This document shows positions 55,129-64,000 of a DNA stretch of 64,000 bases, in pieces. Each line of letters starts with the position of its first letter. The first letter of the stretch is position 1. A program made the position numbers and the translations under genes. Source of the stretch: Verrucomicrobiota bacterium (GTDB taxonomy: Bacteria > Verrucomicrobiota > Verrucomicrobiia > Verrucomicrobiales > DEV007); assembly GCA_018970725.1 (NCBI GenBank), contig JAGWVU010000011.1, positions 1 through 64,000 of the forward strand. The letters are read 5' to 3'. The notes under the pieces were generated by a model. The model had not been told where the DNA came from. It saw nothing but the letters and a program-made list of their open reading frames with translations, and ran no database searches.

Positions 55129-55205
55129 TGATGCATTTCACCCGTAGTTCCTGACAAGACCAGCCTGCCCCCCTTCATCCCTTAACCCAACACACCTTGA
55201 GTCTA

Positions 55206-55979
55206 ATGAAGACACATCGATTCACCACCCTGCTCCGAAGCCTTGGCCTCGGAAGCCTCCTCCTCCTCACCGGACAAGCGGAGGCCCGTCTCATTGGCGG
55301 CTTCGTCGACAGGGCCGAAAGCCGGTTTGTTCGCAACGTCTGGAATTTCATCAAGGAGTTCCAAACCTACCAAACCGTGGGTTCGCAATCGTGGAAATAC
55401 AGCCTGTATTACTACATGGAGCCTTACATGTTCACGACGGCCAATGACAGCTGGACCGACTCGATGGATTTCATCTTTTGCTCCGGCCACGGCAACACCT
55501 ATTACCTCCAAACCAACCAGTCCACCGGAGCGGGAGTCGATTTTGCCTCTGCCATGGCTTCCGGAGATGGATTGGGAGACTCGAACGCGGAGTATCTTGT
55601 CATCGAATCCTGCCTGACGGTCGCCTCACTGGCGGAAACCTCGGATCCTTGGTCGGAGTGGGTGACGGATACCTTGAAGGGATTGCATCAAATCGTCGGT
55701 TTCCGGACGGTCAGCTATTCGGACAACGGCATCCCGAATCGCTACGCGCGCAAGCTGAAGGCCGGAGGTTGCGTCTGGCAATCTTGGTTCGATTCGGTCA
55801 ACGAGGAGAGGTCCTTCGTGTATGGAAGCTTTTACCCGGGAATGGCCAGCGCCATCTTCTACGACGGCACCCGCTACGAAACCCTCGGCTCTTCCGGATA
55901 TCCAGACCCCAGAGGCTGGGGTGGAGTCAATCTCGGAAGGGATTGGGGATCCATCTGGAACTGGTATCAATACGAGTGA
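55206..55979 (+). CDS. Exported DUF6345 protein with caspase-like (clan CD) signature
   Basis: 257 residues from the ATG at 55206. Signal peptide ending LLLTGQAEA. Two hydrophobic strands each end in a candidate catalytic residue: MDFIFCSGHG (His95) and YLVIESC (Cys136). This hydrophobic-block/HG and hydrophobic-block/xxC layout is the hallmark of clan CD cysteine peptidases (caspases, gingipains). The rest (ASAIFYDGTRYETLG, GRDWGSIWNWYQY) fits DUF6345. Peptidase activity is a prediction. Followed after 41 nt by a propeptide-like partner. Confidence 0.7.
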   Translation: MKTHRFTTLLRSLGLGSLLLLTGQAEARLIGGFVDRAESRFVRNVWNFIKEFQTYQTVGSQSWKYSLYYYMEPYMFTTANDSWTDSMDFIFCSGHGNTYYLQTNQSTGAGVDFASAMASGDGLGDSNAEYLVIESCLTVASLAETSDPWSEWVTDTLKGLHQIVGFRTVSYSDNGIPNRYARKLKAGGCVWQSWFDSVNEERSFVYGSFYPGMASAIFYDGTRYETLGSSGYPDPRGWGGVNLGRDWGSIWNWYQYE

Positions 55980-61884: not shown

Positions 61885-64000
61885 TCAATCATTCGCTTCC
61901 GGCTTCGGAGCCGGTTTGTTGTCTTCCTCACCGGGACCTTGCGGCGTCGGCGCGGGGCCGTTCCCTGTGCCCGGCTTCTCCAGTTTCCCCTGAAAGTAAT
62001 CCCGGTAGATCAGGTAGTCCGGATTCTTGAAAATGCTTCCGTTGGCGAAATCCCGTTCGAACTTGAGGAAGGAAGCGTCACCGGAATCACTGTAGGGCCA
62101 AACATCGGAGGCATCGTTGGCCCCGCGTTGCGCATCGTCGACCTCGATGTGATGCCCGGCCCCGTTGCTCCGGCCCCACCCCACGCCGACCCCCGGTTTC
62201 TCGAAATCCCGCGCTGCAGCCACCGCCGCACAGGCGAGGATGTCGTAGGTCTGCTTCTTGCCTGCCTCACCCTCGAGCCGGTCCCCCATCCCTCCGGGCT
62301 TGTCACTGATCACGAAGTCGATGGCATCGCCGAGATCTTTATTCTGACCGTGGTTGGGGCTGCTACTGACCCCCCAGCGATTTCCCGAGGTGAGGTAGAA
62401 GAAAAAGCCTCTCTCGGCCGCCGCCTGCGCCGCCGCGCTCGCCGCATAGAGTGTGCCGGCCCGCATGGTATCCCGTTGCTCGCCTGTCCGACCGATGCCC
62501 AAGGCGAAGTTCTTCCTCTCGATGACGGCCGGGTGAATCTCTCCGGACTTCCAGATGGGATGCCGCGGGCCAACCACTTCGGTCCGGTAGTAGGAACGTT
62601 CCTTCCCGCTGGATACATCCTCCTGCAAGTAACTGACCGGTGGGAAACTTCCTGAGGTCATCTCCTTCAGGCCGCTCTCCCAGAGTTTCGCCTCCTCGGA
62701 CCGCCGGGTTTGCAACCCGTTTGGACCGCTCGTGTTGGGCCAATACTTCCTTTGCTCCTCGAACAGAGGCGGGATGGCGGCCCAGTTCCGCCTGCGGATC
62801 GCTTCCTTGATCAACCACAGCTCCCGCCTCTTCCCCTCCGGCTCCACCTTGGTCCCCCGGTTGAACGCGTTCCCAATCAGGGCTCCATTGCAATCCGGCG
62901 GCAGTTCCCCGCGCCCCAGCACATAGGCGTCCGCCGCAATTCGCGACCAATGCGGCAGGGTCGACTTCTCAAAGACCATTTGGGCCGTTTCCCAAGGGAT
63001 GAAGACTTCGCTCTTGATGCCCCTCGCAAGCGGAGCGGCATCCTCCCCGGTGACTCCCTGAACCCGCATCAAGGCAGCCATCTCCTTGGCCCCCAGCACG
63101 CCAGCCCAATCCTGCTGAATCTGGTCCTTGGACATGTAACCCAAATCATACCCAAACCCGATAGTCACCCCGGAAGAATAACCAGGCCACTGCGGCCGCT
63201 GATACATCTTCTGGTAGTAGAGCCGGCCCCCCGTCTCAAAGTGGACGATGTGTTCCACCGCTTTCTTGGAAACCCGCAAAGGCCGGACATTCACGTAATC
63301 CAGATCCACGGCGTTCGGCTTGGTGCCCTCTTCCGGAACGGGGACGATCGGTGCGGTCTCTTCCGGTGGCGCCGGCTTCTCCGGTGCGGGTGGCACCACC
63401 GGTTCCGTCGGGGGCAGCGGTGGCTTCGGCGGGGCGGGCTCGAGCGGAATTGTATCCACCAGGATTTGTTCCAAAATCTTGAGGGTTTCCGTGCGGTTGC
63501 GGGTCACCGCCACCGCGGCCCAATGCCGCTCGGGGCCATCGTGCCGGGCTTCCTCAAAGGCTTTCCGGTACTGCAACCAAGCCAACTGGGCGGTGCGGAT
63601 GTGCACGATCCGGTCCTCGGCCCGGGGACGGTCCACCGCGAGATCACGCAGCTTGTCGTAAACCTCCGTCAACCCGGCGTCCGCGGTCGCCACGTCCGCT
63701 TCCGTCGCCACCAGGGGCTCGGAGCGGGACTTGAGGAGGGCTTCGAGGATGACCGTGCGCTGATCCAACATCTTGGCCACGCTCTCCTCATAGCCGGGCC
63801 CGCGGATTTGACGCGCCTCTTCCGTTGCCTCCAGAACATACAGATCCCAGTATTTCTGGATGTCGGCGAACGCCGGTGCGAGTTCTTCCGGCAGAACTTT
63901 CCCAACCCTTTCCAAGGTGGCGGTGAGGCGCTCCCGGGATTTTTCCAAGGGCGTCGGCGGCGCCGGAGGAACGGGCACCGCGGGAGGAGCTTCAGGCAGA
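61885..64000 (-). CDS. Multidomain peptidoglycan hydrolase: LprI-like repeats, pesticin-type muramidase, M15-like peptidase (5' partial)
   Basis: The gene runs off the window; ~704 residues are visible. Numbering from the GTG at 63978. Two LprI/DUF1311-like repeats come first (IQKYWDLYVLEATEEARQI; IRTAQLAWLQYRKAFEEARH), then a Pro-rich linker. Next is a lysozyme-like domain with Glu248 (FETGGRLYYQKMY), Thr272 and Asp278 (GVTIGFGYDLGYM), matching the Glu-x23-Thr-x5-Asp spacing of pesticin. After ~250 residues comes a D-Ala-D-Ala peptidase/M15-like domain: His543 (SSPNHGQNKDLGDAIDF) and GHHIEVDD near 608. A Pro-rich acidic tail ends it. It should attack cell-wall glycan and peptide. Own wall, prey or rivals cannot be decided; the signal peptide lies outside the window. 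Confidence 0.78.
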   Translation of the reverse strand, partial: LPEAPPAVPVPPAPPTPLEKSRERLTATLERVGKVLPEELAPAFADIQKYWDLYVLEATEEARQIRGPGYEESVAKMLDQRTVILEALLKSRSEPLVATEADVATADAGLTEVYDKLRDLAVDRPRAEDRIVHIRTAQLAWLQYRKAFEEARHDGPERHWAAVAVTRNRTETLKILEQILVDTIPLEPAPPKPPLPPTEPVVPPAPEKPAPPEETAPIVPVPEEGTKPNAVDLDYVNVRPLRVSKKAVEHIVHFETGGRLYYQKMYQRPQWPGYSSGVTIGFGYDLGYMSKDQIQQDWAGVLGAKEMAALMRVQGVTGEDAAPLARGIKSEVFIPWETAQMVFEKSTLPHWSRIAADAYVLGRGELPPDCNGALIGNAFNRGTKVEPEGKRRELWLIKEAIRRRNWAAIPPLFEEQRKYWPNTSGPNGLQTRRSEEAKLWESGLKEMTSGSFPPVSYLQEDVSSGKERSYYRTEVVGPRHPIWKSGEIHPAVIERKNFALGIGRTGEQRDTMRAGTLYAASAAAQAAAERGFFFYLTSGNRWGVSSSPNHGQNKDLGDAIDFVISDKPGGMGDRLEGEAGKKQTYDILACAAVAAARDFEKPGVGVGWGRSNGAGHHIEVDDAQRGANDASDVWPYSDSGDASFLKFERDFANGSIFKNPDYLIYRDYFQGKLEKPGTGNGPAPTPQGPGEEDNKPAPKPEAND

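Follow-up and report, generated by a model that had tools for sequence, protein, structure and literature searches.

Proteins of the LprI/DUF1311 family were named for lysozyme inhibition, and genes of this family have been described as likely immunity genes adjacent to T6SS effectors, which in some cases have pesticin-like domains (the WHIX paper, PMC12135965). An LprI gene is also paired with a lysozyme-like effector in Salmonella Dublin (PMC8867033). Yet the role of the family is disputed: the LprI-domain protein ScwA, when tested, showed no lysozyme inhibition, and muramidase inhibition is not known to extend to every family member (PMC7933661). In our literature search, pesticin and LprI were brought together by the WHIX paper alone. 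Here we describe a bacterial gene in which LprI-type repeats and a pesticin-like muramidase are joined in one protein, a pairing that is rare.

The window, by which we mean the whole stretch of 64,000 nucleotides analysed, is the beginning of a 121,572-base contig in a 4.9-Mb draft genome (G000). An open reading frame on the minus strand (61885-63999) remains open up to the window edge. The full gene occupies contig positions 61885-64539, starts with a GTG at position 64539 that is also kept in the relatives G001 and G002, and encodes a hydrolase of 884 residues. Its domain order is a hydrophobic N-terminus (the anchor or signal, MKSFLFFLFGLLAVGAAIFLLVTN), a Pro-rich linker, two LprI-like repeats, a second Pro-rich linker, the muramidase and a C-terminal domain. 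The original prediction, made from the window alone, was right in seeing a multi-domain polypeptide, with the muramidase, the LprI repeats and the His...Asp...HxE residues in a single ORF; the contig extension that it proposed revealed both the N-terminal anchor or signal and a conserved upstream neighbour with three hydrophobic segments (the 3-TM gene).

61885..64000, minus strand: in-window part of the 884-residue hydrolase gene; the rest, to contig position 64539, adds the anchor/signal and a Pro-rich linker
63301..63453, minus strand: second Pro-rich linker, residues ~363-413, from the translation; a low-confidence coil in the model

In the DNA, the first linker consists of 10.6 tandem copies of a 21-bp unit. 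This repeat lies at L002 4002-4218 (contig 64001-64217), with counterparts in L011 and L012, and its unit (PPVPVPQ, a PPTPMPEPPAPTPV-like unit or EEPKP) and length differ between genomes; the linker therefore appears to expand and to be replaced quickly. Relatives of the hydrolase were found at 76% identity in a GenBank MAG labelled Akkermansia muciniphila and at 55% in G020. Across the folded domains dN/dS was 0.05-0.25, indicative of purifying selection, with the LprI repeats evolving faster than the catalytic domains. Family scans of the whole protein gave only weak or sub-threshold matches, and an Rfam scan over the locus gave no match.

The muramidase assignment starts from a pesticin-type Glu/Thr/Asp triad, which the original prediction had placed at residues 248, 272 and 278 of the truncated translation.

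62650..63285, minus strand: pesticin/GH24-type muramidase domain, residues ~419-630, predicted from triad, profile, fold and phage relatives
63235..63237, minus strand: predicted catalytic Glu, E435 (formerly 248)
63163..63165, minus strand: predicted catalytic Thr, T459 (formerly 272), which the profile-match offset places on pesticin T201
63145..63147, minus strand: predicted catalytic Asp, D465 (formerly 278), which that offset likewise places on pesticin D207

All three residues are invariant in 10 diverse relatives and across 43 aligned sequences, 41 of which come from viral contigs. A profile of the domain found pesticin among the PDB sequences (E 0.0055), and the residues of pesticin were compared through profile coordinates and fold. 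In the AlphaFold2 model, pLDDT of the muramidase region was 90-98 in most blocks. The best structural match was pesticin itself (4epf; Z 15.6, 2.6 Å over 176 residues), and six pesticin structures headed the matches with Z of 14.9-15.6, followed by phage and T4 lysozymes at Z of about 9.5-13; Foldseek agreed. The comparison with pesticin and T4 lysozyme that had been suggested for this region thus returned a lysozyme fold. The hydrolase scored 13.2 bits against PF16754, below the curated cut-off of 25.8, and hence stands outside that family itself and only in the wider group defined by fold and triad. Searches with tblastn yielded the annotated endolysin of Xanthomonas phage AhaSv, located directly before the spanin genes, as well as a Bradyrhizobium phage protein and plasmid genes, one of them named 'pesticin C-terminus-like muramidase'. 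Muramidase relatives are present in many viral contigs, and no close relative of the whole catalytic part was found there. Taken together, triad, fold and phage endolysin relatives predict with near certainty that the domain is a muramidase of the pesticin/T4-lysozyme fold.

Several other loci drew our attention during these searches. G000 carries a second pesticin-like muramidase with PG_binding_1 on contig 9 (L014 9181-11391), which lies between a 1566-aa Lipase_3/SLOG/CHAT protein and a 779-aa caspase-domain protein in what looks like a conflict or defence locus (L014 2813-13688). Another muramidase adjoining a caspase-clan protease, as in L014, occurs on contig 14 of G038 (L016 7196-10722), where a DUF5675 and pesticin-like muramidase protein is followed after 33 bp by a clostripain-family (C11) protease. 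Within the window, positions 55197-55979 on the plus strand encode an exported 260-aa DUF6345 protein; it carries 'CSGHG...ESC' motifs and may be a caspase-clan cysteine peptidase.

We then turn to the gene upstream of the hydrolase. It lies outside the window at contig positions 64674-65048 and encodes a protein of ~120 residues with three hydrophobic segments. Among the three full loci (G000, G001 and G020) it is the sole common neighbour, directly upstream on the same strand, with 86% and 44% identity between the 3-TM proteins and gaps to the hydrolase of 134 and 146 bp. In G002, with order and strand unchanged, the 3-TM gene precedes a hydrolase of which the N-terminal 137 residues can be read until the contig ends inside the Pro-rich repeats. 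A scan for promoters and terminators between the two genes showed nothing either way. Across 240 genomes of the order, the 3-TM protein was found in these four and in G042 (E 1.7e-5), where the homologue lies 31 bp upstream of a stand-alone pesticin-like muramidase of 239 residues. The G042 locus is prophage-like: one ORF, at 1450 aa, has the size of a tape-measure gene, and further downstream lies a PAS protein in common with the viral contig L023 (E 1.6e-10). A weaker homologue occupies the same position beside phage-like genes in G229 (E 0.004; blastp 1.7e-4 to the G042 copy). In the viral contigs L023 (E 4.9e-10) and L025, the 3-TM protein and the endolysin form one polypeptide, with the 3-TM part at its N-terminus. 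The fusion of the L023 type is carried by six viral contigs at 99-100% identity and is thus not an assembly error.

The fusions are located at L023 2105-3121 (IMGVR_UViG_3300020315_000005) and L025 2084-3136, and a holin-like protein and an endolysin in a single polypeptide are unusual. Membrane-anchored PAS-domain proteins downstream of the endolysin were seen at L131 2213-2887 (a prophage-like locus) and L023 4458-5117 (a viral contig); finding a sensor in the vicinity of lysis genes is unexpected.

Being fused in one lineage and adjacent in others, the 3-TM protein and the endolysin are, on good evidence, working together. We call the 3-TM protein 'holin-like' on the basis of its position, size and topology; comparison with known holin families gave no match. 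In G000, the pair is surrounded by PMT_2, an ECF sigma factor, CbiX, a sigma-54 regulator and a rhomboid protein. There are no phage genes among these named neighbours, and the pair is not inside a phage or prophage. Since the neighbours are ordinary chromosomal genes, we use the label 'domesticated', and from sequence comparison the hydrolase and the 3-TM gene are probably a domesticated phage lysis pair. One may ask whether they are instead what is left of a decayed prophage, retained by chance, given that the muramidase and its partner are phage-type and that a search of 388 genomes of the phylum found this rare domain in just 4. We consider this very improbable and largely refuted, since dN/dS is low and the catalytic residues are intact: purifying selection acts on every folded domain, phage genes are missing from the named neighbours, and the pair is intact in three genomes whose neighbours differ.

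The feature that sets this gene apart from a simple endolysin is the LprI part, for which the original prediction had proposed two repeats.

63724..63954, minus strand: LprI-like repeat 1, residues ~196-272, a degenerate copy (profile comparison P 6e-4, probability 28%); the matching region of the G020 relative is a clear LprI copy
63454..63723, minus strand: LprI-like repeat 2, residues ~273-362 (PF07007 23.5 / 19.5 bits; profile comparison P 2e-5, probability 77%)

The G020 relative contains two clear LprI copies (54.1 bits, E 2.3e-14). For the window protein, the suggested check against PF07007 gave a divided answer: the genome search scored 23.5 bits, above its cut-off of 22, and hmmscan 19.5. 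These repeats are the sole LprI match in the G000 genome. The family's tryptophan and its C-terminal Arg are retained in both, and neither contains the conserved LprI cysteines, which are likewise absent from the verrucomicrobial LprI proteins L113, L115 and L116. Judged by sequence, the N-terminal repeats are very probably of LprI type, clear in the G020 relative and borderline in the window protein.

To what end LprI repeats might accompany a muramidase is suggested by two gene pairs elsewhere. On an Enterobacter plasmid, a Pesticin-domain gene is followed with a 4-bp overlap by an LprI gene (Pfam LprI 5e-12), and on a Burkholderia replicon a Pesticin-domain gene is followed by an LprI gene after 3 bp (Pfam LprI 1.4e-16). 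Both Pesticin domains are above the Pfam cut-off, and both adjoining LprI genes have a signal-like N-terminus. The Enterobacter pair was sought in E. coli genomes and not found. The linkage is not general, because LprI lies elsewhere in the genome in G042, G038 and G244 and is absent in G010 and G229, all of which have verrucomicrobial muramidases; the plasmid muramidases of Rhodovastum, Methylobacterium, Pseudomonas and Rhizobium have no annotated LprI neighbour. Since two pesticin-domain genes directly precede an LprI gene and LprI-type immunity has been published, a brake in cis becomes more likely, and our analysis leads us to propose, with slightly less than even confidence and as the original prediction had suggested, that the LprI repeats may inhibit the muramidase to which they are joined. 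The whole-protein model has a pTM of 0.43, so the relative placement of the LprI repeats and the muramidase in it is not reliable.

Two other views of these repeats have to be weighed. They may serve as a wall-binding or spacer module rather than an inhibitor, making the hydrolase a constitutively active autolysin for wall remodelling. That the repeats of the window protein are degenerate and cysteine-free, that they change faster than the catalytic domains, and that ScwA has an LprI domain with no anti-lysozyme effect (PMC7933661) are all consistent with this view. We nevertheless find it unlikely, as the pesticin-LprI gene pairs of two unrelated bacteria tie LprI to muramidase control, and published LprI-type immunity genes adjoin lysozyme-like effectors (PMC12135965).

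The same gene pairs lend some weight to the second view, in which the hydrolase is an antibacterial effector, a bacteriocin or a predation enzyme directed against other cells and LprI is its built-in immunity. Such a function was what the original prediction expected, and dual-domain wall-degrading T6SS effectors have been published (PMC12135965; TseP, PMC11893102). In such systems, however, a gene of its own provides immunity, since the protection must stay out of the target cell. Moreover, no T6SS, colicin or receptor-binding domain was found in the hydrolase, and Pfam and NCBIfam scans showed no delivery domain (VgrG, PAAR or colicin-type, and WHIX in so far as these two collections cover it). 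The conserved partner is a holin-like 3-TM protein common to phages, and the phage relatives of the muramidase also suggest a lysis cassette. Action on the own wall is thus likelier than an effector against neighbours, which we regard as quite improbable. Because the 3-TM protein precedes or fuses with phage-type endolysins, we read the pair as a domesticated holin-like/endolysin cassette and not as an antibacterial effector.

Finally, we examined the C-terminal domain, for which an M15-like site had been claimed.

61975..62577, minus strand: C-terminal domain, residues ~655-855, candidate LAS/M15-like metallopeptidase; complete in 3 genomes, dN/dS 0.05 (G000 vs G001), weak LAS-family fold matches
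62350..62352, minus strand: H730, candidate zinc ligand, invariant
62317..62319, minus strand: D741 in GDAID, candidate zinc ligand, invariant
62149..62151, minus strand: H797 in GHHIEVDD (with E799), candidate zinc ligand/catalytic motif, invariant

The His...Asp...HxE residues of that claim do exist, H730, D738, D741, H796, H797 and E799 being invariant in all three complete copies known; the M15 family itself was recognised neither by Pfam nor by profile comparison. Specifically, a Pfam scan gave no M15 match, hhalign against M15_3 and M15_4 proteins of related genomes gave a probability under 1%, and the domain profile found nothing relevant among the PDB sequences. The complete domain occurs in only 3 of the 75 genomes searched within the family, and searches of phages, plasmids and viral contigs gave no match. 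A weak match in G297 (E 6.6e-5) lies in an unrelated exported protein and was taken as chance. The domain is the most constrained part of the hydrolase, with a dN/dS of about 0.05 between G000 and G001, a rough value because dS is high between the two. The order of its motifs, SPNH...GDAID...GHHIEVDD, resembles the M15-type SxHxxGxAxD...HxD. Set against the LAS/M15 signatures SxHxxGxAxD and HxH/HxD/ExxH, the domain presents SPNH(6)GDAID, in which H and G stand four residues further apart, and GHHIE. A separate model of the domain was poor (pLDDT 55.6, pTM 0.61). With this model, the Foldseek list was headed by Ply500 and included many hedgehog domains, LysB4 and VanX, all LAS enzymes, at E >= 0.2, and VIA gave Z of 3.3-4.6, with ChiX and a phage RB49 peptidase at 3.6-4.6, below VIA's own caution level. 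Motif order and the weak fold search together tip the balance slightly towards a LAS-type (M15-like) peptidase.

Given these assignments, the following working can be proposed. A simple pesticin-type endolysin may have been rebuilt by gain of an N-terminal anchor or signal, a long Pro-rich spacer, two LprI repeats and the C-terminal His/Asp domain. The N-terminal hydrophobic segment would export the hydrolase and perhaps leave it tethered to the membrane, with the Pro-rich spacer giving the folded part its reach to the wall. There, the muramidase would cut the glycan with E435/T459/D465, and the C-terminal domain, as a zinc enzyme, would cut the stem peptides. The LprI repeats would restrain the muramidase until a signal, perhaps through the 3-TM partner, frees the enzyme, and the outcome on the producer's own wall might be self-lysis or a controlled opening. 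Computation shows the domain composition, the triad with its fold, the conservation of the gene pair, the relationship of the partner to phage proteins and the purifying selection; the way of export, the two enzymatic activities, the restraint in cis, what the partner does and what the device is for are inferences. For the chain as a whole, namely an exported chromosomal peptidoglycan hydrolase apparently derived from a phage lysis cassette, held by LprI and released by its partner, we consider the chances evenly balanced. More speculative, and on the whole rather unlikely, is the fuller picture of a self-lysis or wall-opening device that combines a phage pair with an LprI inhibitor in cis (zymogen-like and freed by a membrane partner) and a new divergent subfamily of LAS peptidases.

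A natural fusion of LprI and muramidase, together with LprI genes that follow pesticin-domain genes, offers a simple in-cis/in-trans test for inhibition of pesticin-type muramidases by LprI. Likewise, the 3-TM partner, whose gene stands by itself here but is part of the endolysin in phages, would illustrate the domestication of a phage lysis cassette.

Compared with known systems, the muramidase shares its fold, its Glu/Thr/Asp triad and the matching spacing with the C-terminal muramidase domain of pesticin (PF16754; PDB 4epf/4aqn) and with T4-type (GH24-like) phage lysozymes. Unlike pesticin, the hydrolase has no receptor-binding or translocation part, and its muramidase is coupled to LprI repeats and to a further domain at the C-terminus. 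With LprI/DUF1311 proteins (PF07007; M. tuberculosis LprI; the immunity genes of PMC12135965 and PMC8867033) the repeats have in common the Q..W..YR pattern and the terminal R/RT..L helix, but they stand in cis with a muramidase, in two copies and free of cysteine. The C-terminal domain resembles LAS/M15 metallopeptidases (Ply500, VanX, hedgehog, ChiX) in the motif order H...GxAxD...HHxE and, in the weak model, in an a-b-b-a-b-b topology, whereas its H-to-D spacing is four residues longer than in SxHxxGxAxD and a sequence-profile match is lacking. Dual amidase-lysozyme T6SS effectors of the TseP type (PMC11893102) unite two wall-degrading activities in one protein, as proposed for the hydrolase, which differs from them in its second domain and in having no T6SS context. 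A further parallel is the phage holin-endolysin cassette, including the L023 and L025 fusions, in which a homologous 3-TM protein lies upstream of, or is fused to, a homologous muramidase. In contrast to that cassette, the pair described here lies away from phage genes, and its hydrolase is four times larger, with an anchor of its own, LprI repeats and a C-terminal domain.
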